Below are positions 4,392 through 35,325 of a DNA stretch of 36,379 bases, piece after piece (position 1 is the stretch's first letter; every line of letters begins with the position of its first letter). The position numbers and the translations under genes were made by a program. The stretch covers positions 1 through 36,379 of the forward strand of contig JAQVBK010000006.1 in NCBI GenBank assembly GCA_028690365.1, given 5' to 3'. Source of the stretch: Candidatus Cloacimonadota bacterium. GTDB taxonomy: Bacteria > Cloacimonadota > Cloacimonadia > Cloacimonadales > JAQVBK01. Below the pieces are notes generated by a model. It did no database searches and was not told the origin of the DNA. It saw nothing but the letters and a program-made list of their open reading frames with translations.

Positions 4392-7300
4392 ATGATCAAA
4401 TACAAATCTGTACTGGGGAATTTCAGAAGAGATGATATAATTGAAAAAATTTTGCAAAATTTACAGATTGATGAGAGTAGAATTATTGAAATTACCGGAA
4501 CTTCGGGAACAGGGAAAACTCATCTTTATAGAAATTTGCGAGAAGAACTAAAAAGACAGAAAATTGAGTGTTTGCGCTTTTTCCCTCGTCAGTTTAAGTT
4601 TAACAATTTTGCTCTACTGTTGGAAATACTTTGTGGTGTTAAGAAACAAGAATTGATAAAATATGCAGAAAAAGCACAAATCATGAAAGTCGATATGAAA
4701 TATGATTTTTTCTACTTTCTCACCGAAGCACTTTCTCAGGAGAAACGTTTACAGTCAAAATTGGTGATAGTTGATGACTTCGATTTACTTGACCAATATA
4801 CTAAAGATTTTGTTCAATATATATGTAATTACGATAAATCATTCAATATAAAATTCGTGGTTTTTAATACCAAGGAGATGTTCGCTAATTCTATTAAAAT
4901 TAAAATCGATTATTTAAGTCACGAAGAGATAAGCTCAATTATTTCCGGTATAAATCTACAGGGAGATCTAAACAAAGATGTATCTGCCGATATTTTGCAA
5001 AACATAACGGGAGGAAATGTATATCTTCTGGAGTCTCTGTTACGGACTATTGCAGGTAAGAATGATTATAATCTGACTGATTATTTCGAAGTGAAAATTA
5101 CTGTGTCGGGACTCTACGAAGAAAAACTTAATGAGATATCTGATGACTTAAAACAGATTATGTGTGCAATATATCTTCTGGAAGATCAAGCCGATGTGAA
5201 CAATATCAATATAATTCTGCAGAAAGAAATATCTTTGGATAAATTTGACCAATTAGTGGAAGAAGGTTTAATTTATTTCGATACCAACCATTATCGAATT
5301 GCTAAACATACTAGTTTTCAGGTCTACCTGACAAAATTCAGGAAAAAGGATTTGTGTAAGCTCTATAAACAAGCAATGGCTCTTTCTGAATTAGTTAGTT
5401 GTTTAAAGCAGCCAAAGTATTACTATGATCTGGATATTTATGATGAAGAAGTTTATTCAGAAATTGAGAGAGAACTTTTGCTGCTGAAAGATTTTGAAAA
5501 TCTACAATTGGTTTATTCAAAAATGCTTGAGATGGAGAATAATAGCCGCAAAAAGGCAAAAATCTTTGAAAAAATGGGGATTGCCTACGAAAAACTCAAC
5601 AATATCGAAGCTGCTGCTGAATTTTTTAGACAAGCTCTAAAGATAACTTCGGAGTATGGATTGCCGGTAGAGGAAATTATCTATCATCTTGTCACTGATT
5701 TAAATTCCATAAATTCGCACACTTTTGCATTAGAAATTATTAGAAAATATTCCCCTGAATCAATAGACTATTACTGGAAATGCAGGATAATAATGCAAAA
5801 AGCTCAGATACTTCTTGATTTGGAAAATATTGAAGAAGGAATGAGCGAGCTTGATAAGTTAGCTACTCAGATTAGAGATATTGAGAACGAAAGAGACCGA
5901 ATATTCATTTCTGCTGAGAGAAAAAGACTTCTGGGCAAGTTCAACTATTTTCAAAACAATATGAATCTTGCTGACGAGAACTTTAAAGAAGCTGAAAAGC
6001 TTTATAGCTCAATAGACGATTATTCCGGAATTGCAGCAGTTGCCAACAATCTTGGAGTAGTTGTAATGTCTCATGGTGATTGGAAAGAAGCAGAAAGGTT
6101 CTTTTTAAAAAGCATAGAATTTGAAAAAAAAGTATACAATCAGAATGGAATATCAGTTTGCTATAACAATCTTGGTGGTTTGATGTGTGATATGGGAGAG
6201 CTCACTAAATCCCTTTACTATCTTAATGAAGCTCTAAAGATTCAGAGTATGTTTAATGATAGATATAAAATTACTTTCATTTATCATAATATTGGTGTTA
6301 CCTGTATGGAAAATGGTATGTACAGAGACGCCGAGAATGCTTTTAAAAATGCTTTAGAGATATCTCTGAGTTTTAATTTGTACAGAAATATTGTCGCATC
6401 CTATTATCATCTTGGAGCATTAAACTTTAAAACCGGCAAATGGAAAAAAGCGATTGATTATTATGAACTGGCTATAGCAAAATCTCAGGAGAACAATTTC
6501 CTGGAAGGGATGTGCAAGGCTTACAATAACCTTGGCGAGCTTTATGAGAAGCGAAGCGAATATAATCTTGCTTATGACCTTTATTTCAAAGGAGTAGAAA
6601 TTCTGCCTGATGTTAAGGATGATTTTCTCAAAGCAGAGCTTTATGGCAATCTGGGTAGTGTTCTTACTCATCTACATAATTATGGCGAAGCTTATCCTTA
6701 TTTGGTCGAAAGTTATGATTATTTTAAAAGTCTCGATGCAAAAGATAAAATCATTGAGGCAAATCAAAAATATGCTTTTTATTTCATCCAAACACGAAAT
6801 TTTGAAAGTGCTGCATACTATATAAACTCCGCAATAAAAACAGCCAAAGAACTGAAAATGGAGTTTGAATTAGGTAAGGCTTATTACATAAGGTCTTTCC
6901 TACAAAGTTCCAAAAATGAGGCAATTAATGATATCAAGTTGGCAATAGAACTATTTATAAAAACAAATAATAATTTTGAGCTGGCTTTAACTAATTATCA
7001 CTATGCTAATCTTTTGGCAGAGGGAGAAGATACATGGGAACAAGCACTTCAAATTCTTTCTGAGAATAAAAAAATAATCAAGGAATTTGATTCAATTAGT
7101 CTCCTGGAAAAAAATGATTACTTGATAAACAAAATCACCAAGGATAGATCTGTAGAGTTAAAAGAATCAAAGTATCATGAATCACTTCTCAGTAAATTTT
7201 ATGAGATAACTGAGAAATTAAATCTGATAAACGATTTTGATAATTTGCTGGTTGCTTCGCTTGACTTACTGGTAGAAATTTCAGAATCAGACGGTGGAAT

Positions 7301-8648
7301 ATTGTGCCTTTACAATCTAAGAGATGCCGGTAATAATTGGGAATATAAAATTTTCAACTCTTTTTCTGAACAACAGGAAGATGCTGATGAATTTTTCAAC
7401 GTTATTACCGAAACTTTTGAAAACAATAAGACATTAAATTATCAACAACCTCATTTTGCAGCGAATTACAATAGCATAATTAGTTTTCCTCTTAGAATAA
7501 GAAACAAGACTCAGGGGGTTATTTTACTCTTTTGTAAACATGGCAATCATTATTTTACCAAGAAGATTATCAATCTTATTAGTGCTCTTTGCAATCAGGT
7601 TATTGTGACAATAGAAAATCTAAGACAATGCAATCTGGAGAAATCTCATGCAATAATCAGAGAAGAATTACTTACAGCATCAAATTTTACTAATATTGTC
7701 GGTAAGAGCAGCAGAATTGAACGAATATTTGAGTTGATTGAAAAGATTAAAGATACTCCTACTACTGTATTGATTGAGGGAGAAAGCGGGACAGGTAAAG
7801 AACTTATCGCCAGGGCAATTCATTTTAACAGTAACAGAAAAAATAAAAAATTTGTTGCCCAATACTGCGGAGCTTTACCGGAGACCCTTCTGGAAAGCGA
7901 GTTATTCGGTCATGTTAAAGGCTCTTTCACCGGAGCTGCCTATGATAAAAAAGGGTTGTTCGAGATTGCGGACGGAGGAACCTTCTTTTTGGATGAAATC
8001 GGAGACATAAGTCTTTCTATTCAAGCAAAACTGTTACGATTTCTTCAGGAAGGAGAGATAAAAAGAGTAGGTTCAACTAAAACTAATAAAGTAGATGTAC
8101 GGGTTATTTGTGCTACCAATGTATCTCTGAAACAAAAAGTAGAAAAGGGCGAATTCAGATTAGACTTGTATTACCGTCTGAATGTAATAAAAATTGATAT
8201 GCCGTCACTTAAGGAACGTAAATCAGACATACCGCTTCTTGCTATACACTTTCTCGATAAATACAATAAGCGAGTTATGAAAGATATTAAAGGTATAACT
8301 GATGAAACTATGAAACATCTGGTCAGATGTGATTGGCCCGGCAATGTCAGACAACTTGAAAACGAAATTGAAAGAGCTGTTACTCTGGCAGAACCCAATT
8401 CATTTATCAGACCTGTAGACTTATCAGAAGAAGTATTTAAACTGGCTCAGCAAAAAGAAACTATTGATATTCTGGAAGTAGTTCCTTTGAAGGATGCTTT
8501 GGAAAAACTTGAAATTCAAATGATAAATGATGCTTTGGAAAGATCTGGCTGGAATCAGACCAGAGCTGCAAAAGAACTTGGTTTGAGTAGGCAGGGACTT
8601 ATAAAAAAAATGAAGAGATACGGATTCGATAAGATAGATGAAAGCTGA
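4392..8648 (+). CDS. Sigma-54-dependent activator with N-terminal ATPase, TPR and GAF domains
   Basis: A very large (1418-residue) bacterial enhancer-binding protein. In order: an N-terminal P-loop ATPase (GTSGTGKT at 36-43, with VIVDDFD as probable Walker B), of the AAA/STAND type; TPR-like helical repeats from about 400 to 900 (recurring patterns such as YNNLGELYEK and YHNIGVTCME); a GAF-like domain around 940-1075; a sigma-54 AAA+ domain with GESGTGKE near 1130, the sigma-54 contact loop GSFTGA and GGTFFLDEIGD; and a Fis-type helix-turn-helix at the C-terminus (GWNQTRAAKELGLSRQGL). GGGAG precedes the ATG. The last 11 bp overlap dinG. It probably activates sigma-54 promoters in response to an unknown ligand or partner protein. 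Domain calls in the central and C-terminal parts are firm; targets are unknown. Confidence 0.93.
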   Translation: MIKYKSVLGNFRRDDIIEKILQNLQIDESRIIEITGTSGTGKTHLYRNLREELKRQKIECLRFFPRQFKFNNFALLLEILCGVKKQELIKYAEKAQIMKVDMKYDFFYFLTEALSQEKRLQSKLVIVDDFDLLDQYTKDFVQYICNYDKSFNIKFVVFNTKEMFANSIKIKIDYLSHEEISSIISGINLQGDLNKDVSADILQNITGGNVYLLESLLRTIAGKNDYNLTDYFEVKITVSGLYEEKLNEISDDLKQIMCAIYLLEDQADVNNINIILQKEISLDKFDQLVEEGLIYFDTNHYRIAKHTSFQVYLTKFRKKDLCKLYKQAMALSELVSCLKQPKYYYDLDIYDEEVYSEIERELLLLKDFENLQLVYSKMLEMENNSRKKAKIFEKMGIAYEKLNNIEAAAEFFRQALKITSEYGLPVEEIIYHLVTDLNSINSHTFALEIIRKYSPESIDYYWKCRIIMQKAQILLDLENIEEGMSELDKLATQIRDIENERDRIFISAERKRLLGKFNYFQNNMNLADENFKEAEKLYSSIDDYSGIAAVANNLGVVVMSHGDWKEAERFFLKSIEFEKKVYNQNGISVCYNNLGGLMCDMGELTKSLYYLNEALKIQSMFNDRYKITFIYHNIGVTCMENGMYRDAENAFKNALEISLSFNLYRNIVASYYHLGALNFKTGKWKKAIDYYELAIAKSQENNFLEGMCKAYNNLGELYEKRSEYNLAYDLYFKGVEILPDVKDDFLKAELYGNLGSVLTHLHNYGEAYPYLVESYDYFKSLDAKDKIIEANQKYAFYFIQTRNFESAAYYINSAIKTAKELKMEFELGKAYYIRSFLQSSKNEAINDIKLAIELFIKTNNNFELALTNYHYANLLAEGEDTWEQALQILSENKKIIKEFDSISLLEKNDYLINKITKDRSVELKESKYHESLLSKFYEITEKLNLINDFDNLLVASLDLLVEISESDGGILCLYNLRDAGNNWEYKIFNSFSEQQEDADEFFNVITETFENNKTLNYQQPHFAANYNSIISFPLRIRNKTQGVILLFCKHGNHYFTKKIINLISALCNQVIVTIENLRQCNLEKSHAIIREELLTASNFTNIVGKSSRIERIFELIEKIKDTPTTVLIEGESGTGKELIARAIHFNSNRKNKKFVAQYCGALPETLLESELFGHVKGSFTGAAYDKKGLFEIADGGTFFLDEIGDISLSIQAKLLRFLQEGEIKRVGSTKTNKVDVRVICATNVSLKQKVEKGEFRLDLYYRLNVIKIDMPSLKERKSDIPLLAIHFLDKYNKRVMKDIKGITDETMKHLVRCDWPGNVRQLENEIERAVTLAEPNSFIRPVDLSEEVFKLAQQKETIDILEVVPLKDALEKLEIQMINDALERSGWNQTRAAKELGLSRQGLIKKMKRYGFDKIDES

Positions 8649-13921: not shown

Positions 13922-14416
13922 TTAGTGAAACATTTCGGCAATCATTTTGCCATTATGAAATTGTCTGCTTACTTTCTTTTGACCATTTTCATAGATATCT
14001 TCCATGATAAGAGTACCTTTTTCATCGAAACCGTTTACCTTGCCGTGTAGAAGATTGTTATGATAGTTCTCGATTAATTTTACTTCTCCATTTTTATAGA
14101 ACCACCGGGTAACTCCTTCCTGAATTCCGTCTTCATATAACATTTCGGCAGCAAGTTTACCATCTTCATAGTACCATTTAGATAAACCGCAAATCAAATC
14201 ATCCTGATAAAAGCTTTCCTGCCAGATATTTCCATTTTCATAATATGATACATATCTGCCATGTCTTAAATCATTCAAGTATAATATTTCTGCCTCCAGA
14301 CTACCATTATCATAAAACCACTTTGAAATTCCATTCTTCTTTCCATTCTCATATCTTTCTTCAGTCCTGACTGCATGATTATCATGATATGTTCTTTGAA
14401 TTTCAGACAGAATCAC
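13922..14416 (-). CDS. MORN-variant repeat protein (YwqK-like)
   Basis: A 164-residue protein made almost wholly of about seven repeats of 20-24 residues, with the pattern Y-x-NG-x3-G-x3-W-Y-x-(D/N)G (for example SKWFYDNGSLEAE and TRWFYKNGEVK). This is the MORN-2/YwqK variant repeat. Databases often label such proteins as YwqK-family antitoxins, but no toxin partner is visible, so I do not assign that role. The start is GTG, overlapping the cheA stop by 4 bp (GTGA), with AGGAGG just upstream, so it is translationally coupled to cheA. It may be a scaffold or accessory for the CheA pathway; that is inference from position only. Confidence 0.85.
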   Translation of the reverse strand: MILSEIQRTYHDNHAVRTEERYENGKKNGISKWFYDNGSLEAEILYLNDLRHGRYVSYYENGNIWQESFYQDDLICGLSKWYYEDGKLAAEMLYEDGIQEGVTRWFYKNGEVKLIENYHNNLLHGKVNGFDEKGTLIMEDIYENGQKKVSRQFHNGKMIAEMFH

Positions 14417-17400
14417 AGTGCCTCCTGCTTAGAGATACTTTTTTTCTTATTGAGTAGTTTTTTAACTGTTTCTAAAAGATGCTCTTTATGAACTTTTATT
14501 TCATATGCATCAAATCCGATCTCTGTTGCTTTGGAACGATTAACATCATCACTTAGTGTAGTCAGTGCAATTAGCGGAGTCGTATCATATTCTTCATTTG
14601 ATCTCACTGCTTTGGCAAATTCAAATCCGTCCATTCTTGGCATGATAATATCTACAACAAAAGCTTGATATTTATTCTTTTGAAGTTTCTTCATTGCATC
14701 CATTCCGTCAACTGCAAGATCAACTTTATAACCGACTGATTCAAAGTATTGTTTGACTAAAGATCGGAAGAATGGAGTATCTTCTACCAGTAGGATTTTG
14801 ATTTTCTCGTTTTGATCCGAATGATATCGGTGAGTTTTTTCCGGATCTGCCATCTCAGCAATTGAGTAAATATCAGGGAACAGAACAATTCTCTTATCAA
14901 TAAGCGCAGATCCAATCAATCCTTTAGCTGTTATGCTTTCAGTGTCGATGTTAGCGTTTACTGAGATAGAGTCGATAATTTTATGAGCGATAATGCCAAT
15001 AGGATTTTCTATCCAGGTAGGAATTATTACATAAATGTTTTCTCCTGGATTTTGCTTTACTTTCACAGGTAAAAAATCTTCTAATTGTATTATTCTTAGA
15101 CTCTTACCTTCATGTTCAATGTATTTTTTATCACCTACAATTTCTATTTCTGACTGGTTTATCTTTTCTATTCTCTTAATCAAATCAAGATTCAACGCAA
15201 AGAATTCATCATCTGCATTTTCAAAAAGGAGCAAGTTTTGTTTTTCCTGAGTATCTTTTCTGAGTGAATCTTCCTTACTCTCTGTTTTTGTCTGAATAGC
15301 TGAGAAATTGAGTTTGGCTTTAGAAGCGATTCCGGCAATATCAAGAATTAAAGCAACAGTTCCATCACTCATAGTTGTAGTGCCGGAGTAACACATCGAT
15401 TTTTTGAAGAATCTGGGTATTGATTTAACCACAATCTCTTCGCTGTCAAAGATATTGTCAACTACCAGACCAAATTCATTTTCATCTTGTTGAAGTACCA
15501 GAACTCTAATAATTTCCTGATTTTCATCGTTTTTGGGTAAGCCCAGAACATCCGCTAAGTAAACTATTGGCAACAGTTTGTTGCGTAATCGAAGAACTGG
15601 TGCATTATTGACCATTTCTATTTTGTGCTGCCCTTCTCCCTTCTTTATTCTTACCAGTTCCCTGAGAGATACTTGCGGTAAAGCAAAATTCTGATTTTGA
15701 ACAGTAACGATGAGGGAAGGAATGATTGCCAGGGTTAGTGGAAGCTTGAGATTAACTACGGTTCCTTTGCCTTTTTCTGAATCAACGCTGACACTACCGC
15801 CCAGTTTTTCGATGTTTGTTCTGACAACGTCCATTCCGACACCTCTGCCTGATACATCAGAAACTTCTTCAGCGGTAGAAAAACCGGCAGCAAAAATAAG
15901 ACTGTAAACATTTTTGTCTGACATTATTTTTGCTTCTGATTCAGTGACAATTCCTTTATCAATTGCTTTCTTTAGAATGTTTTCTCTGTTAATACCTCTT
16001 CCGTCGTCTACTACATCAATATTTACTTTTCCGCCTTCGTGATAAGCTTTTAGCCAGATTGTACCGACTGAAGGCTTTCCTGCTTTTTGTCTGACAGAAG
16101 GCAACTCAATACCATGATCTGCTGAGTTTCTAATCAGATGTGTAAGTGGGTCGGAGAGGACCTCAATGATAGATTTATCCAAATCTACATCATTTCCGGT
16201 AACTTCCAGCTTTATGTCTTTTTTTAGTTTATTAGATAAGTCTCTGATAACTCTGGGAAATTTGTTGAATACGGTTGATATCGGCTGCATTCTTGTATTC
16301 ATAATCTTTTCCTGCAGCAGGGATGTTGTCATGTTGATGTCTTGCAAAACATTCTGTAATCCGGGGACTGTTTTCGAGATGTCTTCTGTCATTCTAAGCA
16401 GTTGGTTTCTTGCCAACACCAGTTCTCCGGCAAATGTCATCAAATCGTTCAATAGTGGTACCGAAACGCGGATACTTTCTGAATGTTTACTCGACTCGTT
16501 CTTAACAATTCTGCTTTTTGAGTCTGCAACTTCGCCATTTGTAGAATCAACATTATTTTCACTATCCAGATTGTCTTCTTCAGATTTATGGGTTAAATCG
16601 TTTTCTGTGGTATTTTCTTCGCTTGTTATCTTTTCTTTTTTTGTTTCTTTCATAACATCAGGGACTTCCAATAGTTCAACCTGGCTTTCTTCTACTTCGA
16701 GACCGAGAGCAATCAGATCAGGCTCCAACACAGAAGAAAACAGAAAAACGAAGGAAATATCTTTTTCTGTGAGATTGTCGTCTAAACCACCAATCTCGGA
16801 AATATCTGAGTATGAAGCGATTAAGTTGCCCAGTTTTTTGATCCCCTGTAAATAATCAAAAGGTGTTTTACCTTTATTCTTCATGTCTTTTTTTGTGTAG
16901 GCATGAACAGAATAAAGAAATCTACCATGACCAACAGCTTTTTCCAGCTCACTGACGGAGATTTCAAATTGACGATATAATCTTTCGGGCAGGGTTTCGA
17001 TGTTTTTAGGTTTAATAAGTACGTTTTTATCGGCCTGACCGCCATTGCTGAGGATTTCATTCAACCTTTTCATCTCATCCCGGATATCAATACTTTCACT
17101 ATTATCTACATCATCAATCATTTCTGTTAAACGATCCTTGCCATCAAGCAAACTAGTTATCATACCGGAATAAGGTTTCATTTTACCATCTCTAATCAGT
17201 GAAAACAAATTTTCCATTACGTGACTGAGATTAGTTATATTTTCGAAACCAAAGAAGCCTGCTGAACCTTTTAGGCTGTGAACTGAACGGAATATCCGAT
17301 TAATCAGTTCTTGTTCGGGAGCATCAACTGTATCTTCCAGAGTTAGCAGGTCGGCTTCGAGACTATTCAGATGTTCTCTGGATTCTTCCAGAAACATTTG

Positions 17401-17427
17401 TAGCATTTCAGGATCTTGCCCTACCAT
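14413..17427 (-). CDS. cheA: CheA-type hybrid histidine kinase with two CheW-like domains and receiver
   Basis: A 1004-residue hybrid kinase. An Hpt domain (1-110) carries phospho-acceptor His50 in SVHSLKGSAGFFG. A poorly conserved middle domain and an acidic linker (about 255-315) lead to a CheA dimerisation domain (317-385). The ATPase domain (385-563) has the N-box NSADHG, DDGRGI and GRGVGMDVV. Two CheW-like domains follow (about 565-705 and 728-855). A C-terminal receiver (876-990) has Asp883 in the acidic pocket and acceptor Asp926 in VVDIIMP. GGAGGA precedes the ATG. No MCP, CheR, CheB or separate CheW gene lies nearby; the direct upstream neighbours are a STAS protein and an RsbW-like ATPase. 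FrzE-like or pilus-linked signalling is more likely than flagellar chemotaxis, but this is inference. Confidence 0.95.
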   Translation of the reverse strand: MVGQDPEMLQMFLEESREHLNSLEADLLTLEDTVDAPEQELINRIFRSVHSLKGSAGFFGFENITNLSHVMENLFSLIRDGKMKPYSGMITSLLDGKDRLTEMIDDVDNSESIDIRDEMKRLNEILSNGGQADKNVLIKPKNIETLPERLYRQFEISVSELEKAVGHGRFLYSVHAYTKKDMKNKGKTPFDYLQGIKKLGNLIASYSDISEIGGLDDNLTEKDISFVFLFSSVLEPDLIALGLEVEESQVELLEVPDVMKETKKEKITSEENTTENDLTHKSEEDNLDSENNVDSTNGEVADSKSRIVKNESSKHSESIRVSVPLLNDLMTFAGELVLARNQLLRMTEDISKTVPGLQNVLQDINMTTSLLQEKIMNTRMQPISTVFNKFPRVIRDLSNKLKKDIKLEVTGNDVDLDKSIIEVLSDPLTHLIRNSADHGIELPSVRQKAGKPSVGTIWLKAYHEGGKVNIDVVDDGRGINRENILKKAIDKGIVTESEAKIMSDKNVYSLIFAAGFSTAEEVSDVSGRGVGMDVVRTNIEKLGGSVSVDSEKGKGTVVNLKLPLTLAIIPSLIVTVQNQNFALPQVSLRELVRIKKGEGQHKIEMVNNAPVLRLRNKLLPIVYLADVLGLPKNDENQEIIRVLVLQQDENEFGLVVDNIFDSEEIVVKSIPRFFKKSMCYSGTTTMSDGTVALILDIAGIASKAKLNFSAIQTKTESKEDSLRKDTQEKQNLLLFENADDEFFALNLDLIKRIEKINQSEIEIVGDKKYIEHEGKSLRIIQLEDFLPVKVKQNPGENIYVIIPTWIENPIGIIAHKIIDSISVNANIDTESITAKGLIGSALIDKRIVLFPDIYSIAEMADPEKTHRYHSDQNEKIKILLVEDTPFFRSLVKQYFESVGYKVDLAVDGMDAMKKLQKNKYQAFVVDIIMPRMDGFEFAKAVRSNEEYDTTPLIALTTLSDDVNRSKATEIGFDAYEIKVHKEHLLETVKKLLNKKKSISKQEAL

Positions 17428-17435
17428 AAATCCTC

Positions 17436-17738
17436 CTAAGATACGTCGAAATAAGATGAGAGTTTAAAGAGATTGAACAAATTTTTAATAGGTTTTGAGG
17501 TGTTAATTACAGAAAACTGTCTTTTCTCGGCAGTAACTTGTTTATACAAACCTACAACAAGATTAATACCCAGAGAATCAATTTCAACCACATTTTCTAA
17601 ATTGAGTACGATATTCTTCAGATCTGAGTGCTCAGACAGAAAGCTCTTTGATGTTTTTAATTGGTGGTCTAGATTTGAAGCAATCAGATTGTTGGAAAAG
17701 ATTAACTCCAGTGTGTTATTGTCAATTTTAGCTTCCAT
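17436..17738 (-). CDS. STAS-domain protein (anti-sigma factor antagonist-like)
   Basis: A 100-residue single STAS domain like RsbV/SpoIIAA. The core NVVEIDSLGINLVVGLYK holds the conserved Asp54-Ser55, the serine that RsbW-type kinases phosphorylate. GGGAGGT precedes the ATG. It lies 28 bp after the gene for an RsbW-like ATPase and 8 bp before cheA, so all three are probably one transcript. A partner-switch role with the neighbouring ATPase is expected; its downstream target (sigma factor, kinase or other) is not visible. Confidence 0.9.
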   Translation of the reverse strand: MEAKIDNNTLELIFSNNLIASNLDHQLKTSKSFLSEHSDLKNIVLNLENVVEIDSLGINLVVGLYKQVTAEKRQFSVINTSKPIKNLFNLFKLSSYFDVS

Positions 17739-17766
17739 ATTACCTCCCTGACTTATATTTTTTTCT

Positions 17767-18492
17767 TTAAAACTTTAATTCTGCAGTTACCAGATTTTTA
17801 TTAACTAAAAATCTTTCTGTATAACTACTTACAATAAAGAATCCGCGTTGTCCTTCTCTAAGATCTTCGACGGATTCAATTTTCCCGGGAAAATCAAATC
17901 CTTTTCCCTCATCTTTAACTTTCAAACAAATTCTCTTTTCTTTATCTTCAAAACTTATAGAGATAAATACCTGTTTCTGTGTATCAAAGAGATTTCCGTA
18001 TTTAACTGCATTCGTCAGCAACTCTCTGCTGACAACATTCAATTGAAAAATAATAACGGAGTCATCAAACTTTGCTATTCTTTTTATAAATTCTTCTATT
18101 CTTCTTACTGCTGTATCTATACTTTCGTAAGTAGAATCAACACAAAAAAATAACGAGAAAACTGATTCAGGATTAATGTATTCAGGAAACATGCTCTCAT
18201 GTATAAGATTATTTATGTGTAACAGACACTGTCTGTGAAAAAAAAAACGGGAATCAAATTTATTGTGCAAGTCAAGCATTTCATCAATAGAATCAGTTAT
18301 CCAAAAAACTTTGGCATCGGTTTTATGAATGAAAGAATAAGTATCATTGTCACAAAATGAGCCAAAGAACATGAGTGCAATATCATCAGGTGACAAGTTA
18401 TTTTCAGCTTCTGAGATATTGCAAATGCCTATGTTTTCAGGAAATGAAAACGTGAAATCTTCCGCTATCAGAAAAATCTTTCTTGGCATCAT
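17767..18492 (-). CDS. RsbW-like ATP-binding protein with receiver-like N-terminus
   Basis: A 241-residue protein. The C-terminal half (about 120-241) is a GHKL ATPase of the RsbW/SpoIIAB type: N-box SRELLTNAVKYGN (Glu157, Asn161), DEGKGFD at 194-200 and a glycine motif reduced to GQRGFFIV. The N-terminal 100 residues (KIFLIAEDFTF ... KVFWITDS) alternate strands and helices like a degenerate receiver, but no clear phospho-acceptor Asp is seen. The start overlaps the stop of the FKBP-like gene by one base; two adjacent ATG codons are possible. It probably phosphorylates or binds the adjacent STAS protein. It could also be an anti-sigma factor, but no sigma gene is nearby. Confidence 0.85.
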   Translation of the reverse strand: MMPRKIFLIAEDFTFSFPENIGICNISEAENNLSPDDIALMFFGSFCDNDTYSFIHKTDAKVFWITDSIDEMLDLHNKFDSRFFFHRQCLLHINNLIHESMFPEYINPESVFSLFFCVDSTYESIDTAVRRIEEFIKRIAKFDDSVIIFQLNVVSRELLTNAVKYGNLFDTQKQVFISISFEDKEKRICLKVKDEGKGFDFPGKIESVEDLREGQRGFFIVSSYTERFLVNKNLVTAELKF

Positions 18493-25064: not shown

Positions 25065-27980
25065 CTATTCAATTCTATTAATTACATTACATATATCTTC
25101 TAGTCTGAAAGGCTTTGTAATGTAGCCTAGAAGCCCTTCTTTTTTGAGTTCCTGGATTGATTTATCTTCTGTTAATCCACTTGAAATTATTATATTGAGT
25201 TGGGGATATTTAGCTTTTAACTGGCGGAAAAGATCAATGCCACTAATTGTAGGTAGTATTCTATCCAAAATAGCAATATCAATGTCAGGATTTTCTTCTA
25301 AGACCTGCAAGGCTTTCTCGCCGGAATCTACTGCAATTACCGAGTTACCGATTTCTTCAAGCAATTCTTTGGCGATTTCCAGCACAATCTCTTCATCGTC
25401 TACTAGAAGTATTTTGTGTGGATTAAATTTTGAAGGAGTGGTAACAATTTGTACTTCTTTAGTCAAAGTTTTTTTACTCAAAGGCAAAGAGATGATAAAT
25501 TTGGAACCTTTATTGACTTCAGATTCCAGATCCAGTTTACCATTGAATTCCTGAATGATTCTGATAGTGGTAGACATGCCTAATCCTGTACCTTTTTCTG
25601 CACCTTTAGTGGTGAAGAAAGGTTCAAAAATGTGTTGTTTGACCTCTTCAGTCATACCGGTTCCGGTATCTGTAATCGATATTTTTGCAAAAAAACTTTC
25701 ATCAACTGTCTCTTCCGAAAAATCTACCATCTTCTGCGAACGAATGGTTAATAAACCACCATTCGGCATTGCATCTCTTGCATTTACTGTAATGTTCAAA
25801 ATAATCTGTTGAAATTTTACCGGATCACCTTCAAATACTAATGCTGTGTCCGATAAGTCTGTAGTGAAGGCAATATTCTTTGGAAACGTATGAGAAACCA
25901 GTTCCAGCACTTCATGAATAACTTCATTCAAATCAAACAGCTTAACTGTTTTATCATCTTTTCTTGAGAATTTTAATATTCGGTGCGCCAGAGCTGATCC
26001 TCTGTCCGCCGATTTTTTTATCATTGTAGCATAGTTATGTATTTTAGATTCAGGTTTCGAATTAATTAAAAGCATTTCAGTTGCACCAAGAATACCGGAA
26101 AGAATATTTTTAAAATCGTGTGCTATTCCTCCTGCCATAGAACCGACAGATTCCATTTTTTGAGTTTGATTGAGCTGATTATAAAGAGATATTTTCTCGG
26201 TGATATCCGTAACCATTCCCATAATAGCGAGTTTGTTTTCCCAATGTGCCATTGAGAACATTAGCTCAACTGTGACAATTCCGTGATCACTTTTGATCAA
26301 TTTTAGCTGTTGTACTTCATATTCACTGTTCAAGAGGAAATTACTCATTTTTGAAGCAAATTTCCCTTGCTCGGAAGGTTCAATAATATCCAACATAGAA
26401 CTTCCAACTAAGAAATCTTTGCTCATATCAAGCATTTTACAGAAAGAATCGTTAACAAAAGTGATTTTATTTGCCTGCAAGATAAATATTCCAACCCGGG
26501 CTTCATTGATGAGTGATCGGTAAGTTTTTTCGGAATTTGTCAGACGTTGAAGTAAATTGGCATTATCCATTACTGTTGCAACTTGTGAGGCGAAAATCTC
26601 CATAATGTGTAAGTCCTCATCAGTAAAATCAACTTCTTCCTGACGGGTAATAGTCATAACCCCGAGTAATTTGGTTTTACTTATCAGAGGAACGGAGAGT
26701 AATTTCTCTACAATATCGGGAGTGCCTTCAATGGTTTTTGTGACACTGTTACTTGTTGTGTTATTGAGATATATTCCCTGACGCGTTTCGGCAACAAGAC
26801 CAGATAAGCCTTCACCTATTTTAAGCTTGATAGATGATTTTACTGATTGAATCTCCGGGTCATTGGTATAAAAAACTGTAAGATGACCGTTGTCAAAAAC
26901 CAGCAGAGTTCCATACTTATAATCAACGAGGTTCTTGGTGTCATCAATTACGTATTTTGTAATAAGTTTAGGATCAGTGATAGAACTGAGCATTTCCGAA
27001 AATTTCATGATTGCCCTGAATTTTGCAATTTCCTTATGTACAACCTCATTTATACGAAGCTGCTCAGTAATGTTATTAATAAAGATTATGTACTTAATTT
27101 TTCTTTTGCCTATTTGAAGCTTTTCTACAAACAATTCAACGAAAACATTTTCTCCTCTGGTATTATTTAACGTGAATTGTTGTTTGTCTACAGATTCAAC
27201 ATCATATATTTTTTGGTTTTTATCTTCAAAAATTATCAGTTCAAAAAAATTCTTATTGGAAAGATAATTATCTTCTTTGGCAAAGAGATTAGAAGCAGGA
27301 GTATTAAATTTGCTTATTTGTCCTTGTCTGTTTGTGATTACATAGGGTGAAGAATGAGAATGAGTTGAGAGTGAAACATATATTTCTGCGTCTTCTTTGT
27401 TGCCTAGAGATAATCCTTTTCTGTGTAATAAATGACTGTATATAAATAAAATTACCCCAATGATTGTTAGCAATAAAGATAAAACTATAGATTGAATAAA
27501 TGATTTTCGCGCAATACTTGATAATGCTGAAGAGACTTTTTCTATAAGAACTACATAATAAATGTCATCTGAAATTATACTTTTCTTGAAAAAAACTGCA
27601 TAAGTGTTATCTGAAAATGAGGCTCCTTGTAATGCTGAATCATTAATGACTTCTGATATGATTCTCTGAAGGATACTTTCCTGTAGATCTTGTCTAAAAT
27701 GCTGCTGATAAGTGATTGATTCATTATTCAAAATTATGAGTGAATAATTAAAAGTTTCCAGTTCTGGGATCATTTTATCGTAATAAACGGAGATATCTTG
27801 TTTTTCGAGAGTGACTTTTTTCTCTAGAAAAGAAGTTATCATCTGCAGATGTTTGAAATTGGTACTAGTTTTACTGTGTTTATACAATGCAGAATAGTAG
27901 TTTAAAATTGAGAAATAACACAAAACAAGAAGAATTACAAAGATAACCACAGTTAAAAGTATAAGTTTAATGTTTTTCAT
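25065..27980 (-). CDS. Hybrid sensor histidine kinase (PAS-GAF-PAS-HisKA-ATPase-REC)
   Basis: A 971-residue membrane kinase. Residue numbers here follow the ORF track; subtract four for the chosen start. A first membrane helix (about 9-30) and a second (166-186) flank a periplasmic domain of about 135 residues. Then come a PAS domain (210-310), GAF (325-480), PAS (488-600), HisKA with His625 in GGIAHDFKN, an ATPase domain (NARDAMPNGG, DTGTGM, GTGLGMS) and a receiver with acceptor Asp910 (AILDRILP) and Lys960 (TKPF). The start is set at the ATG sharing ATGA with the upstream stop; the track's TTG start has no better ribosome site. It is last of the three coupled genes with the PAS protein and the solute-binding protein. 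No separate response regulator follows. Confidence 0.94.
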   Translation of the reverse strand: MKNIKLILLTVVIFVILLVLCYFSILNYYSALYKHSKTSTNFKHLQMITSFLEKKVTLEKQDISVYYDKMIPELETFNYSLIILNNESITYQQHFRQDLQESILQRIISEVINDSALQGASFSDNTYAVFFKKSIISDDIYYVVLIEKVSSALSSIARKSFIQSIVLSLLLTIIGVILFIYSHLLHRKGLSLGNKEDAEIYVSLSTHSHSSPYVITNRQGQISKFNTPASNLFAKEDNYLSNKNFFELIIFEDKNQKIYDVESVDKQQFTLNNTRGENVFVELFVEKLQIGKRKIKYIIFINNITEQLRINEVVHKEIAKFRAIMKFSEMLSSITDPKLITKYVIDDTKNLVDYKYGTLLVFDNGHLTVFYTNDPEIQSVKSSIKLKIGEGLSGLVAETRQGIYLNNTTSNSVTKTIEGTPDIVEKLLSVPLISKTKLLGVMTITRQEEVDFTDEDLHIMEIFASQVATVMDNANLLQRLTNSEKTYRSLINEARVGIFILQANKITFVNDSFCKMLDMSKDFLVGSSMLDIIEPSEQGKFASKMSNFLLNSEYEVQQLKLIKSDHGIVTVELMFSMAHWENKLAIMGMVTDITEKISLYNQLNQTQKMESVGSMAGGIAHDFKNILSGILGATEMLLINSKPESKIHNYATMIKKSADRGSALAHRILKFSRKDDKTVKLFDLNEVIHEVLELVSHTFPKNIAFTTDLSDTALVFEGDPVKFQQIILNITVNARDAMPNGGLLTIRSQKMVDFSEETVDESFFAKISITDTGTGMTEEVKQHIFEPFFTTKGAEKGTGLGMSTTIRIIQEFNGKLDLESEVNKGSKFIISLPLSKKTLTKEVQIVTTPSKFNPHKILLVDDEEIVLEIAKELLEEIGNSVIAVDSGEKALQVLEENPDIDIAILDRILPTISGIDLFRQLKAKYPQLNIIISSGLTEDKSIQELKKEGLLGYITKPFRLEDICNVINRIE

Positions 27981-29713
27981 GATAAACTGCAATAATGGAT
28001 TATGTAATCTTTTTCTGGAATGTGTGCAACAAGAGTTGTAAATGTCAATTCTTTGTTACTCATAGTAAGTAATGAGATTGTCTGCTGATTTTGTGCGGTA
28101 AAAATATTATTGAAATTGTATGATAACCAGATAGAGTCATATCCGGTAATGCCGGAGAATGATTTTGAAACAAAAACCAATTTCTTCTCTTGTGTAGTGA
28201 TTACAGTAAAGGAACTGGAGTATTCGAAAATGTATTTATGGAATTCTTCATCTTTTCTAAGATCAGTTATATCCTGGATAGTGACGGTAAAAAGATCTGA
28301 ATCAATGTGCGTTAATGAGAGAAGAAACCAAAGATTTAACTGTGGTTCAAAATATTCCATTTTTGCAGTTTTCTTTACTTGATTTAGCAGAAGATCAAGG
28401 TGAGTGATAAATTCTTTAAAATTCTTTAGAGCTGTAGTATAATCAACATTTATCACTTCATTTTTAGTCAGATTGAAAACATTGGGGAAAGAGTTATTTG
28501 TGTTAATAATTGTTTTGTTTTTGATTAAAATGAAAACTTCTTCTGTCAGATTCAGATATTCGTTGAGGGTTTGCTGAACTGATTGTTTTTCTTTTTCTTT
28601 TGATTCAATCTCCGTAATATCAGTGATAGCTCCATAAGAACCTGCTAATTTACCATTTCTGTCGTATATAGCGTTGCCCGAAATCAGACAGGATAATTTT
28701 GTTCCATCCATTTTGGAAAAATTTAGTTTATAAGCAGAGGATTTGACTTCTTCTCTGAGAGCTGTTTCGTTTGCGTATCGTTCCAGAGATTCTGTCCCCG
28801 TGATAAAATCAGTAAATCTTCTACCTACAATATCTGATTCAGATTCGTATCCCAATAAAGATATCAACCGACTGTTGCAGAAAGATATTCTACCATCAAG
28901 TTCTTCTATGATAATACCGTCATTTGAATTCTCTACTAACAGATTGAATTTTTCAGATAGTTCAAAAAATTTCTCTTGAGAGTTCTTGAGGTTTGCGATA
29001 ATGAAAGCTATTTTTCTTTCTAAGACCTGAAATGGTCTGATATATTTAAACTGAAGTTTAGTTTGATTTTCTCTATTATAAACTTGGGATTCAATACTTT
29101 GATTTATAATATTAATTGAGTCAGTGACCTTACTGTGGAAAATATGGAGCGAGAACAAAAGTCCAAGATAGACCATTGACAGAAGAATACTGGTCAGATA
29201 AGCCATTCTCATTACTTCTGAACGAGGTCTGTTATAATTAAAAAAGTAGACTGAGTTTAGTTTATGATTGCCATTTCTTTCAATAATAGGCAGAAAAACC
29301 AAGCAGAAATTCTTATCTTCAATCTTATAATCAAAGATTGTAGGATTGGTTAAGAATATATAATCATTCAGGAATGATAAATCTTTTGGCAGATAGAAAT
29401 AATTTTTTTTCTCATCTGAGTAATTAAACAACACATTGTTCTTAGTGTCCAAAATTAGAAGGTTTTCAAATCCATATTCCGCCAGGTCAGTATGAGTAGA
29501 AATCAATTTCTCCATTTGAAAGGGATTGATTGTTTTTAATTGTTCGATTACTTTATTTACGTTATTGCCCACGGTCAGAGATTTTGATAATACCATTTCC
29601 CTGAATCGTGATACTGAAAGAGAGTAATTTTGCAACAAAAGTATAATTGTTATCAGGATGATAATGAATAGAGAGGGAAAAGAAAGATTCAGGTATGTTT
29701 TACTGCTTGTCAT
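27977..29713 (-). CDS. Membrane PAS-domain sensor protein without output domain
   Basis: A 578-residue protein with a membrane helix (about 12-28), an extracytoplasmic domain (about 30-165), a second helix (170-192) and a linker resembling a HAMP or signalling helix. Three PAS-like domains follow: 250-370 (SNDGIIIEELDGRISFCN), 378-488 (weaker) and 488-578 (VFVSKSFSGITGYDS). The protein ends with the third PAS: no kinase, cyclase, GGDEF or receiver domain is present, and the stop is followed at once by the kinase gene in the ATGA overlap. It overlaps the binding-protein gene by 14 bp. It probably passes a signal to the co-encoded hybrid kinase, which is inference from layout. Confidence 0.87.
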   Translation of the reverse strand: MTSSKTYLNLSFPSLFIIILITIILLLQNYSLSVSRFREMVLSKSLTVGNNVNKVIEQLKTINPFQMEKLISTHTDLAEYGFENLLILDTKNNVLFNYSDEKKNYFYLPKDLSFLNDYIFLTNPTIFDYKIEDKNFCLVFLPIIERNGNHKLNSVYFFNYNRPRSEVMRMAYLTSILLSMVYLGLLFSLHIFHSKVTDSINIINQSIESQVYNRENQTKLQFKYIRPFQVLERKIAFIIANLKNSQEKFFELSEKFNLLVENSNDGIIIEELDGRISFCNSRLISLLGYESESDIVGRRFTDFITGTESLERYANETALREEVKSSAYKLNFSKMDGTKLSCLISGNAIYDRNGKLAGSYGAITDITEIESKEKEKQSVQQTLNEYLNLTEEVFILIKNKTIINTNNSFPNVFNLTKNEVINVDYTTALKNFKEFITHLDLLLNQVKKTAKMEYFEPQLNLWFLLSLTHIDSDLFTVTIQDITDLRKDEEFHKYIFEYSSSFTVITTQEKKLVFVSKSFSGITGYDSIWLSYNFNNIFTAQNQQTISLLTMSNKELTFTTLVAHIPEKDYIIHYCSLS

Positions 29714-31253
29714 CTTTTCTACTGAAATCGCTAAAATTTATCGTGTGGGAAAACTGATTCCAAACAAATTTATCAGAGAGAAGATATAACTCTTTTGGAG
29801 CATATAATGGAATGACAAAGAAAGTGTTTTGGGCAACTTCAGCTATTTTCAGTACAGCTTCTTCATTCAGTTCAGGATCAATTTCCAAGTCAATGTGATT
29901 ATCGAAAAGTATTTTCAATTCATTATCCACATTTCCAAACCTATTTAAAAGTCCTTTATTTTCATCGTGATGATAGAGTCCGAAGATTGAAAAAAAAGAA
30001 TAGTCTCCCGGATTTCTAAAACCTGTAATGTATGCAGAGGAGTTGCTTTCTGAGAGTTTATTGTAAAATGATTCTGAGTTATTGTAGCAGATTTCTGCCG
30101 TTATTCCGATATTTTTCAGGCTATTTTTGATAAATTCACCCAGTTCATAATCCATCGGATATTTATTTTGAATGCAATCAATAGTTAAGTTAAAGCCATT
30201 CAGATATCCTGCTTCCTTCAAAAGTTTGCTAGATGTATCCGGATTGTATTCAATAGGAGTAAGACTATGATTAAAACCGTTTGACTCCGGTAATGATGGT
30301 TGGCTTAAAACAATTGCGCTATACTGTAAATAGCGACTCACAAAAGTATGGGTGTCAATTGAATGAGCAATTGCTTTTCTGACTCTGATGTCAGTGAATG
30401 GATTTTGTTCCAGATCAATCATTGGTGATTTGCTTCGTCTGGCATCTAGCATCATGTACATAACGATGTTACCGGTTTTTTCTATTATATTAAAGGATGA
30501 ACGTTTTTGCAGAGTTTTAACTTCATTTACAGGTAAATCCATCAACAAATCAATTTTGCCGTTATAAGCAGCGTTAAGTTGGTCAGCTCTTTCTTTTATC
30601 TTAAAGATTTTAATTTTATCGATGCTTGCAGGTTCTCCCCAATATCTATTAAATTTTTCAAGGACAATTAGGGAGTCATTATTGGAACTGAGATAATACT
30701 TACCTGTGCCTACAGGATTTTTTGCGATTTCATCGTCAGTAAACTGTGAGAGTATTTCTGAATTATAAATTGGTAAACCGGCAAGAGTGAACATTAGAGA
30801 TTTAAAGTCAGATTTGTAGGTAAATTCTATGCTGAATTTGTCGATGATTCTGCAGATAAGCTCTTCAGCCATCTGTGGGTCCTTCATGAGAGATACATCA
30901 CTATTAAGTGCCCTGTTAAGACTTTCGATTACATCTTGACTGTCTAGCAACTTGCCATTATGAAAATGAACCCCTTCTCTGATTTTAAATACAATAGTTG
31001 AGTCAGATGAATTCAACCAGCCACTGGTTAAGATTGGCTTAAAAGTAGAATGCTCATATTCTAAGAAATATTCAAAAATATTACTGTTAACCAGCGTTGT
31101 AAAATGTTCGTTTCTGGTGATTTTGTCAAATGTCTCAGGAAAACTGGAAAAAGCTACTTTTAGTTCACTGGTTTCCTGTTTATTTGAACAGGATGTTGCT
31201 GTTACAATGAGTAACAGCAACAATAAGATTAAAGGTTGCAGCTTGATTTGCAT
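29700..31253 (-). CDS. Family 5 extracellular solute-binding lipoprotein
   Basis: A 517-residue peptide/nickel-type binding protein (SBP_bac_5). The signal peptide ends in a lipobox TATSC with Cys22 as the lipidation site, so it is membrane-tethered in the periplasm. Typical features are LTSGWLNSSDSTIVFKIREGVHFHNGKLLDSQDVIESLNRAL, IAKNPVGTGKYYL and RVRKAIAHSID. These proteins usually feed an oligopeptide ABC transporter, but no permease or ATPase gene is adjacent; instead the downstream genes are a PAS sensor and a kinase. The ribosome site is weak (AGGTT). It follows gap by 28 bp. Confidence 0.92.
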   Translation of the reverse strand: MQIKLQPLILLLLLLIVTATSCSNKQETSELKVAFSSFPETFDKITRNEHFTTLVNSNIFEYFLEYEHSTFKPILTSGWLNSSDSTIVFKIREGVHFHNGKLLDSQDVIESLNRALNSDVSLMKDPQMAEELICRIIDKFSIEFTYKSDFKSLMFTLAGLPIYNSEILSQFTDDEIAKNPVGTGKYYLSSNNDSLIVLEKFNRYWGEPASIDKIKIFKIKERADQLNAAYNGKIDLLMDLPVNEVKTLQKRSSFNIIEKTGNIVMYMMLDARRSKSPMIDLEQNPFTDIRVRKAIAHSIDTHTFVSRYLQYSAIVLSQPSLPESNGFNHSLTPIEYNPDTSSKLLKEAGYLNGFNLTIDCIQNKYPMDYELGEFIKNSLKNIGITAEICYNNSESFYNKLSESNSSAYITGFRNPGDYSFFSIFGLYHHDENKGLLNRFGNVDNELKILFDNHIDLEIDPELNEEAVLKIAEVAQNTFFVIPLYAPKELYLLSDKFVWNQFSHTINFSDFSRKDDKQ

Positions 31254-31281: not shown

Positions 31282-33260
<1,979 letters not shown>

Positions 33261-33333: not shown

Positions 33334-35325
33334 TTATTCTGATATGAGAATGTTTTCTTCTCCTTCAGTGACGAGTTTGATCATATATTCTGCGGATTCA
33401 TGTAAATCTCCGGTTGGAAATTGAAGAACTTGCTGGAACAATGTTACAGCTTCATCTGGATTGTTAAGTTCTTCAGCGTAAATAAATGCTTTCATGAAAA
33501 GTGCCTTGTAATCGTCTTTATTGTTTTTGTAAACATCGATGATTTGATTGTAGTAATCAACTGCATTTTTGAATCGTTTTTTGAGTTGAGATTCTTCGGC
33601 AAGTTCAAAAAGTTCTTCAGCAGATAAACTGGTTTTAAGTCTCTCAGAAAAAATAGTGATTTTGTATTCAGCAAACAACTCTTCTTTTTTCTGTTCAAAG
33701 GCTTCTTTTTGTTTCTCTCTTTTAACTATATCTAATATGGAATTTTTAACTTCACTCAGAGGAATATGACTTCCGGGGGTTTCACTTAAGATTCTGACAA
33801 AAACAAATTCGTTTTTTGTGTTTCTGGTAATCTCAGAAAGATTGCCAACTTCAGTATTCCAGATAATCTGCGATAATTCATCATCTTTACCTATGCCGGG
33901 AATTACTCCATTATTGAATACTTTATCAATTGTGCTTTTATAGTTAGGCAAGGCAGATTCTGTGATTATCTTGTCCAGTTCATCAAAATTGTTCTTCTTT
34001 AAAGCTTTAGCAGCTGCTTTGAGACTTCGTTTAGCAATTTTTTCTGTTTCAAAAGCAAATAACTGAACTGAACGCTCTGTCTTTGTTTCATATTTCTCAA
34101 GATTTTCATTGTAATAATTATTAACATCATCGTCAGTTATCTCAATCAAGTCGATAACTGTTTCCTTATATGCAGTTCGTATCAAAACTGATTTTCGTGC
34201 ATGTTTAACTTCAAACATATTGTCAATTTCCGATTTATATTTCTTTGTCTGTGAGTCTATATATAGAAGTCTATTGTCAATAACGGATTGCCAATATTGA
34301 GTGTTGTTGTCAGGGTTCTTTAGTCCTGCTGCCTGCTGGGAGGTAATCTGGGAAAGAAAATCGATATAATCAGCTACTGTAAGCTTTAGTACCGGACTCT
34401 TGCTATTAATAATATGTTTATCCATAATATCTATATATGAAAGACTGTCATCAAAGTTTACGCTAACTAATAATTCGTTGTCAAAAACTACATTGTATTT
34501 TTCTTTAAGTTCGGCTTGTTTTTTGTCGTTCAACTCTTTTTCTTTTTGAGGTAATAGAGATGCTGTTATCTCTTCTCTAATTTCATCTAAAGGTCTGATG
34601 TATTCAGGCTTGAGTTGAGTAACAATAAAGAAATGTATACCTGATTCAGTTGTTATGGGACCATTGAAGATTGCTACATCAGCTTCCAATATTCTTTTTT
34701 CAAGTTCAGGATCTTTTCCTATCAGTGGAATGTATCCCTCACCTTTTATGTTTCGTATTTCACCTTTCTTATTTTTTGAAGATGCATGATTTGAATATTT
34801 TTCTACCAAAGCATCAAAGTCATTGTTGTCGGCGTATTCCTGGATAATTGTGTCGACTAATCCTTCATCACTGATTCTTAAGTACTTTATATCAGTGCTT
34901 GATTTAACTCTGAATTTTTCTTTGTTTTCATTGTAATAATCGGAGAGTTCTTTTTCAGAAATTGCAGCTTTATCTGTAACTTCTCTTTTAAGATACTCCT
35001 GTGCATAATAGGGGATTACTGTGTTCTGGATAATTTCCTGAATCAATGGGCGATCTTCGATCTTCATTTCCAAAGCTTTCAGATAAAAAGCTTCTTCAAT
35101 TGCCATGTTTTCAAGAAGCTTTATTTGTGACTCCATGGTTTGATACTGGCTCCTATACATCTGAGGTATTTTCGATAGTCTTGTATCCAGGTCTTCTCTT
35201 GTTATGCCTGAATTGCCGATTTCTACAAGATATTCCGTACTGTTTTCAGAGGCGAAAAGAAAAAGATTAAATTGAAAAAATGTTAAGATTAACATTGTGG
35301 TTAAAAGATAGTTTTTTGACTTCAT
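33334..35325 (-). CDS. Periplasmic parvulin-type peptidyl-prolyl isomerase/chaperone
   Basis: A 663-residue SurA/PrsA/PpiD-like folding factor. A signal peptide (about 1-26, ending FLFAS) leads to an N-terminal chaperone helix region with ITREDLDTRLSKIP. A first parvulin-like domain spans about 120-260 (DFDALVEKYSNHASSKNKKGEI, VAIFNGPITTESGIHFFIVTQL). A second spans about 410-540 (NNFDELDKIITESAL, VGNLSEITRNTKNEFVFVRIL). A short C-terminal helical TPR-like part follows (FKNAVDYYNQIIDVY). It would help outer-membrane and secreted proteins fold in the periplasm. It is the first gene of its strand group; AAGGAG precedes the ATG. Whether both parvulin domains are active is unclear. Confidence 0.9.
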   Translation of the reverse strand: MKSKNYLLTTMLILTFFQFNLFLFASENSTEYLVEIGNSGITREDLDTRLSKIPQMYRSQYQTMESQIKLLENMAIEEAFYLKALEMKIEDRPLIQEIIQNTVIPYYAQEYLKREVTDKAAISEKELSDYYNENKEKFRVKSSTDIKYLRISDEGLVDTIIQEYADNNDFDALVEKYSNHASSKNKKGEIRNIKGEGYIPLIGKDPELEKRILEADVAIFNGPITTESGIHFFIVTQLKPEYIRPLDEIREEITASLLPQKEKELNDKKQAELKEKYNVVFDNELLVSVNFDDSLSYIDIMDKHIINSKSPVLKLTVADYIDFLSQITSQQAAGLKNPDNNTQYWQSVIDNRLLYIDSQTKKYKSEIDNMFEVKHARKSVLIRTAYKETVIDLIEITDDDVNNYYNENLEKYETKTERSVQLFAFETEKIAKRSLKAAAKALKKNNFDELDKIITESALPNYKSTIDKVFNNGVIPGIGKDDELSQIIWNTEVGNLSEITRNTKNEFVFVRILSETPGSHIPLSEVKNSILDIVKREKQKEAFEQKKEELFAEYKITIFSERLKTSLSAEELFELAEESQLKKRFKNAVDYYNQIIDVYKNNKDDYKALFMKAFIYAEELNNPDEAVTLFQQVLQFPTGDLHESAEYMIKLVTEGEENILISE

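Follow-up and report, generated by a model that had tools for sequence, protein, structure and literature searches.

Does a solute-binding protein (SBP) of family 5 serve uptake when it is encoded without a transporter and next to two membrane sensor proteins? This question is raised by a 36,379-nucleotide stretch of DNA from a Candidatus Cloacimonadota bacterium (contig JAQVBK010000006.1), referred to here as the window. The initial annotation described a coupled operon of an SBP gene, a gene for a membrane protein with PAS domains and a hybrid kinase gene, and suggested that the SBP reports a peptide or other solute to the two sensors. We conclude that the trio is probably a dedicated SBP-dependent receptor, in which the SBP reports to the hybrid kinase and to a kinase-less PAS partner (probability about 0.65).

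Gene arrangement and its conservation

The cluster lies on the minus strand of the window in the order prolyl isomerase, fba, gap, SBP, PAS protein and hybrid kinase, and nadA follows on the opposite strand. All coordinates given for the cluster refer to the minus strand. According to Pfam and gene order, the PpiC/SurA-type prolyl isomerase gene (33334..35325) is followed by fba, which encodes a class II aldolase (32283..33260), and directly by gap (31282..32271). The prolyl isomerase gene, which precedes fba in many relatives too, is the probable first gene of the operon. The SBP gene (29700..31253; 517 aa) starts 28 bp downstream of gap, and no terminator-like site was found on the coding strand of this interval. 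The PAS protein gene (27977..29713; 578 aa), assigned by Pfam, hydrophobicity and a low-confidence model, overlaps the SBP gene by 14 bp (29700..29713). The kinase gene (25065..27980; 971 aa), assigned by Pfam, hydrophobicity and residues conserved in orthologues, overlaps the PAS stop codon by 4 bp (ATGA, 27977..27980). The listed open reading frame of the kinase starts with TTG at 27992. The alternative ATG at 27980 was taken as the start because it forms the ATGA overlap and agrees with the relatives. The ORF coordinates and the sequence confirmed the two overlaps and the place behind fba-gap, and the domain contents described initially (SBP_bac_5, PAS without an output domain, hybrid kinase) were found by Pfam. 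Neither an ABC permease nor a transport ATPase was detected in Pfam scans of the three genes and of the window's other main genes, as had been claimed.

Searches for the trio covered the Cloacimonadota, and the genome search was centred on this phylum, to which the window belongs. Six genomes carry the trio, and all are Cloacimonadota: the window genome (G000), G003 (contig JAOZMQ010000042.1), G006, G008 (JAKPKU010000100.1), G016 (WRLO01000087.1) and G020. They span four families and five genera. The order fba-gap-SBP-PAS-kinase is kept in all six, with the PAS gene between the SBP and kinase genes. The contig of G020 begins inside gap, so that fba is out of view, and the gene order of G006 is split over two contigs, which share identical residues where they overlap within the SBP gene. 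An apparently broken SBP gene in G003 was rejected, as the split is an assembly gap (a run of N). The SBP and PAS frames overlap in every carrier, by 1–4 bp in the relatives versus 14 bp in the window. Identical gene order in five more genomes places the arrangement beyond chance. The identity to the window proteins is 22–34% for the SBP, 20–27% for the PAS protein and 32–34% for the kinase; that of Fba is about 70%.

The informative part of the profile searches is the absence outside the six carriers from which the profiles were built: the PAS protein profile gave 611–776 bits in the carriers and at most 86 bits, in the PAS region only, elsewhere among 107 genomes of the order, and the profile of the kinase sensor region (first 210 residues) detected the same six carriers and nothing else among 125 genomes of the phylum. 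The expectation that the three genes stay together in related genomes holds: every genome found with the PAS protein and the kinase, six in number, keeps the trio together. SBP relatives were detected in 7 of 59 genomes, the window's own counted, and a contig scan with the SBP as lone query gave no relative. The termite-gut genome G016 has two tandem SBP genes before one PAS protein and one kinase (L024:2983-6248), which looks like two inputs feeding a common pair of receptors. In G023, an SBP of the sensory clade is encoded alone (L026:5237-6787), away from fba-gap and with no PAS or kinase genes beside it. Neither the PAS protein nor the kinase was found by profile searches of this 64%-complete genome.

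The two membrane proteins

The hydrophobicity profiles of the kinase and the PAS protein each predict two transmembrane helices that flank one periplasmic domain. In the kinase, TM1 (residues 7–25), the periplasmic domain and TM2 (about 167–185) are followed by a PAS region, and Pfam assigns GAF (342–472), PAS (487–593), HisKA (614–676), HATPase_c (718–835) and REC (857–967) domains. The protein is a hybrid histidine kinase, as it contains HisKA, HATPase_c and REC together with the catalytic His and Asn, the G boxes and the phospho-acceptor Asp. His621, Asn729, the DTG/GTGLG boxes, Asp861/862, Asp906 and Lys956 are conserved in the six orthologues. Since these phosphotransfer residues of the kinase and REC domains are conserved, the kinase is probably active.

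A response regulator gene was looked for downstream of the trio in the relatives, and none was seen. No separate HPt gene was seen either, and all three HPt domains of the window genome belong to large proteins. Other regulatory proteins are encoded in the window. The minus-strand region 14413-18492 contains the gene of a CheA-like protein (1004 aa) with an Hpt domain, two CheW-like stretches and a REC domain, and after it STAS and HATPase_c_2 (anti-sigma-like) genes. Proteins of comparable length with an HPt match were detected in G003, G006, G008 and G020. On the plus strand (4392-8648), a 1418-aa protein is encoded in which an AAA/STAND-like ATPase and many TPR repeats are joined to a sigma-54 activator domain and an HTH of the Fis type. 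Such a combination of a MalT-like sensor with an enhancer-binding protein is unusual.

The PAS protein consists of TM1 (8–26), a periplasmic domain (about 27–172), TM2 (173–191), a PAS domain (254–368) and two more PAS-like folds (about 390–482 and 497–577), as assigned from Pfam, hydrophobicity and a low-confidence model. The last of these folds is missing from the PAS protein of G003, which stops before it, and thus seems dispensable. The Pfam matches are PAS only, and no output domain was found in the scan.

The periplasmic domains of the kinase (27516..27905) and the PAS protein (29198..29635) have no Pfam match. The predicted models of the two membrane proteins are of low confidence (mean pLDDT 58 and 56). 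The order of elements is common to both models: a long helix, short helices, two strands, a helix, three strands and a long helix. This topology fits the Cache/PDC features in both low-confidence models, and the fold matches, which are weak, point to PAS/Cache-type sensor proteins; for the kinase domain these are the sensor domains of CpxA and CzcS. When the two periplasmic domains were compared by their profiles, the match was weak, though collinear (E 4e-4, probability 35%). Both domains are tentatively called Cache/PAS-like, and no narrower identity was obtained from the Pfam, fold and sequence comparisons.

The weak likeness of the two periplasmic domains bears on the question of whether both proteins receive the SBP signal. 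The SBP might serve the kinase alone, and the PAS protein might be a separate cytoplasmic sensor of redox, ligand or energy state, which joins the pathway inside the cell or acts on another target. PAS proteins often sense intracellularly, and there is no output domain that would restrict this one to the kinase. However, the PAS gene stands between the SBP and kinase genes and overlaps the SBP gene, and the PAS protein has its own periplasmic domain in all six carriers. We regard this separation of the two sensors as possible but rather unlikely, and the receptor reading with both membrane proteins is preferred.

The binding protein: uptake or sensing

The SBP matches SBP_bac_5 (PF00496, 5.1e-58) with 197 bits against a cut-off of 32.4, over profile positions 2–346 of 368. 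It is the sole PF00496 match in the window genome, and the family occurs in just 10 of the 125 genomes of the phylum. According to hydrophobicity and the N-termini of the relatives, the protein begins with a hydrophobic stretch and Cys22. The Cys22 codon (31188..31190) is a candidate lipidation site in an imperfect lipobox (VTATS-C), and Cys22 is the likely lipid anchor. The lipoboxes of G003, G006 and G016 are clearer, the SBP of G020 has no such Cys, and that of G008 lacks a canonical box. Such a variable anchor would fit a protein that needs merely membrane proximity.

The SBP profile matched the chitin-binding protein CBP (PDB 1zty) with an E value of 6e-18. In OppA and DppA, an acidic segment of the GDNGDPDNF type supplies the Asp that holds the peptide N-terminus. 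This segment is present in the phylum's own ABC-type SBP from G006, and an alignment of these divergent sequences indicates that it is not retained in the trio SBPs. The initial suggestion of a peptide as the ligand is therefore not supported. The trio SBPs also have additional residues before the 'NP..D.RVR.AI' stretch, which are absent in the ABC-type copies.

Family-5 SBPs do occur beside ABC permease operons in relatives: G006, G105, G025 and G003 each have a copy in an operon that also encodes two permeases and two ATPases. These copies are placed on other branches of the SBP tree, outside the clade (98/98) to which all trio SBPs belong. In none of the six trio loci does an ABC permease or ATPase gene lie beside the SBP gene. 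Four genomes, G000, G008, G016 and G020, lack oligo_HPY, the signature of the Opp/Dpp ATPase, and in these no family-5 SBP was found outside the trio operon. In G003 and G006, oligo_HPY is confined to separate ABC operons. The permease signature BPD_transp_1_N is absent from all carriers except G006; since it missed the ABC permeases of G003, less weight attaches to its absence on its own. With the window genome at 90% completeness, any single absence is soft, and the same absence in four genomes is firmer. A pure uptake role of the trio SBP is thus unlikely, since four carriers have neither Opp/Dpp signatures nor another family-5 SBP and the SBP clade is separate. These results lend good support to the proposal that the SBP serves sensing and not uptake.

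In an alternative with a transport role, the SBP would feed a permease encoded elsewhere, and the two sensor genes would regulate that uptake or simply be co-expressed with it. A precedent for such a split system is CuaABC of R. cellulolyticum, whose ATPase gene lies at another site (PMC10384115). Ten BPD_transp_1 matches occur in the window genome, and G003 and G006 have their separate ABC operons. However, judged by eye and from their neighbours, the ten matches resemble polyamine, phosphate, amino-acid, nitrate/sulfonate-like, sugar and phosphonate-like systems, which are other types with their own partners. Moreover, each ABC operon of G003 and G006 has its own SBP from another branch, and the Opp/Dpp signatures are lacking in the four carriers listed above, the window genome among them. 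A remote permease is accordingly improbable, and a dedicated sensory SBP remains the preferred reading.

The history of the trio was traced by the trees. Fba relatives in named genomes belong almost without exception to Candidatus Cloacimonadota. Among the 62 named fba loci, gap lies directly downstream of fba in nearly all, and the trio follows in three (G003, G008 and G016). The carriers are scattered on the Fba-Gap tree as the window, G006, G003 and a group of G016, G008 and G020. A recent joint spread of trio and fba-gap was rejected, because the carriers are not clustered on this tree (p-AU 2e-7). A split of the window, G006 and G003 from G016, G008 and G020 is compatible with each of the four trees (SBP, PAS, kinase and Fba-Gap), with support from about 70 (SBP tree) up to 100 (Fba-Gap tree). 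A strict trio-only SBP clade was also rejected (p-AU 0.004), as the lone SBP of G023 nests beside that of G016. In the simplest reading of these trees, the trio would be an old vertically inherited unit that evolved several times faster than Fba-Gap and was lost many times. Repeated independent insertion at exactly the same site is less likely than vertical descent with losses. An accidental neighbourhood, in which a leftover transport SBP and two unrelated sensor genes hitch-hike behind fba-gap, agrees with the patchy occurrence of the trio (6 of 125 genomes, which do not form a single clade on the Fba-Gap tree) but is highly improbable, because the place and order are kept at 20–34% identity with overlapping frames and compatible trees where a chance neighbourhood would have broken up, and decay of catalytic residues was looked for in the carriers and not seen.

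Several other loci were inspected. The kinases that lie behind gap in L054 and close to gap in L061 were rejected as trio members; they are different kinases, and no trio is present. L054 belongs to another Cloacimonadota genome, and the genes downstream of its gap encode a short protein and then the different PAS kinase (L054:2843-4883). The sole reason why L083 shows no trio is that the contig breaks off within gap; the distance between its fba-gap and that of the trio genome G020 is zero. L074 is a contig filed as Bacteroidota, the Fba of which falls inside the Cloacimonadota, probably owing to a naming or binning error.

A proposed receptor of three parts

The SBP-dependent receptor is supported by the conserved order, the compatible trees, the SBP clade, the absence of Opp/Dpp signatures and of any other family-5 SBP in four carriers, and the kinase residues. 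The similar periplasmic topologies, the two SBPs per sensor pair in G016 and the known SBP-driven kinases also support it. The low-confidence models, the weak match between the two periplasmic domains, the lack of a linked response regulator or separate HPt gene, and the related SBP kept alone in G023 (64% complete) count against it. In the proposed mechanism, the SBP would be kept at the membrane by the lipid or, in some relatives, probably by an uncleaved helix, and would bind a periplasmic solute. The SBP, loaded or empty, may then dock on the periplasmic domains of the hybrid kinase and the PAS protein. The PAS protein would pair with the kinase and tune its kinase or phosphatase activity in a ligand-dependent manner. 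Docking on both domains and a kinase-tuning PAS partner are suggested by the conserved residues, the similar topology and the variable SBP anchor. The kinase would first phosphorylate the REC domain that it carries, and afterwards a partner encoded elsewhere.

Presumed co-transcription with fba-gap would tie the receptor amount to glycolytic gene expression. The link to carbon supply, which the initial annotation had raised, is suggested by a single feature, the conserved position behind fba-gap. A more specific proposal is that one SBP (two in G016) switches a paired hybrid kinase and kinase-less Cache/PAS-like co-receptor, which feeds back on its own fba-gap operon. This proposal is speculative; if true, an operon of central carbon metabolism would contain a membrane sensor of its own.

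Sensor kinases under the control of a binding protein are known from TorT–TorS, LuxP–LuxQ and XylFII–LytS (PMC6321045) and from CuaD–CuaS (PMC10384115), and binding proteins act on other receptor types too (PMC9602780). In Pseudomonas, many SBP-driven kinases are encoded beside their SBP gene (PMC11113362). In Vibrio, the chitin-binding CBP controls the membrane hybrid kinase ChiS (PMC10208484). In GlnH–GlnX–PknG of Corynebacterium, an SBP lipoprotein and a membrane relay adjust central metabolism (PMC9769921).

In TorT–TorS and LuxP–LuxQ, the periplasmic binding protein acts on the kinase sensor domain, and the trio is similar in that its SBP gene is kept near the kinase gene. TorS and LuxQ are hybrid kinases, TorT and LuxP belong to an SBP class other than family 5, and to our knowledge neither has its own transporter. 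Unlike the trio, these systems are not known to have a second, kinase-less membrane sensor between the SBP and the kinase, or a metabolic operon upstream. CBP is related to the trio SBP and likewise controls a membrane hybrid sensor kinase. CBP additionally serves an ABC transporter, and ChiS itself binds DNA. In contrast, the trio has no Opp/Dpp-type signature in four carriers and no DNA-binding domain, and has the extra PAS protein. The three-component sugar sensors CuaD–CuaS–CuaR and XylFII–LytS also have a dedicated SBP that is encoded beside the sensor kinase and reports a solute. CuaS–CuaR has a linked response regulator and an adjoining transporter operon, whereas the trio has neither, and its kinase is a hybrid. 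GlnH–GlnX–PknG shows the same succession of an SBP lipoprotein, a kinase-less membrane protein and a kinase. PknG is a Ser/Thr kinase without a membrane sensor domain, GlnX is not known to have PAS domains, and we know of no homology of the two to the trio PAS protein and hybrid kinase. Finally, the ABC importers of the Opp/Dpp/Nik type share the family-5 binding protein, but the trio cluster lacks permease and ATPase genes and four carriers lack such signatures genome-wide.

SBP-dependent sensor kinases are thus already known, and the trio adds a new combination: a family-5 SBP in genomes devoid of Opp/Dpp signatures, a second membrane sensor that lacks a kinase, the absence of a linked regulator and the constant position behind fba-gap. 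No published description of such an SBP-PAS-kinase unit was found in the literature searched. The family-5 SBP, usually filed as an oligopeptide-transport subunit, is kept here in genomes without matching transporter signatures, so that automatic annotation as an importer would be wrong in this case. The trio lends itself to testing the idea of a receptor in three parts, one of them a membrane partner that lacks a kinase. A connection of an external solute with carbon metabolism can also be tested, given the constant position of the trio after two genes of glycolysis.
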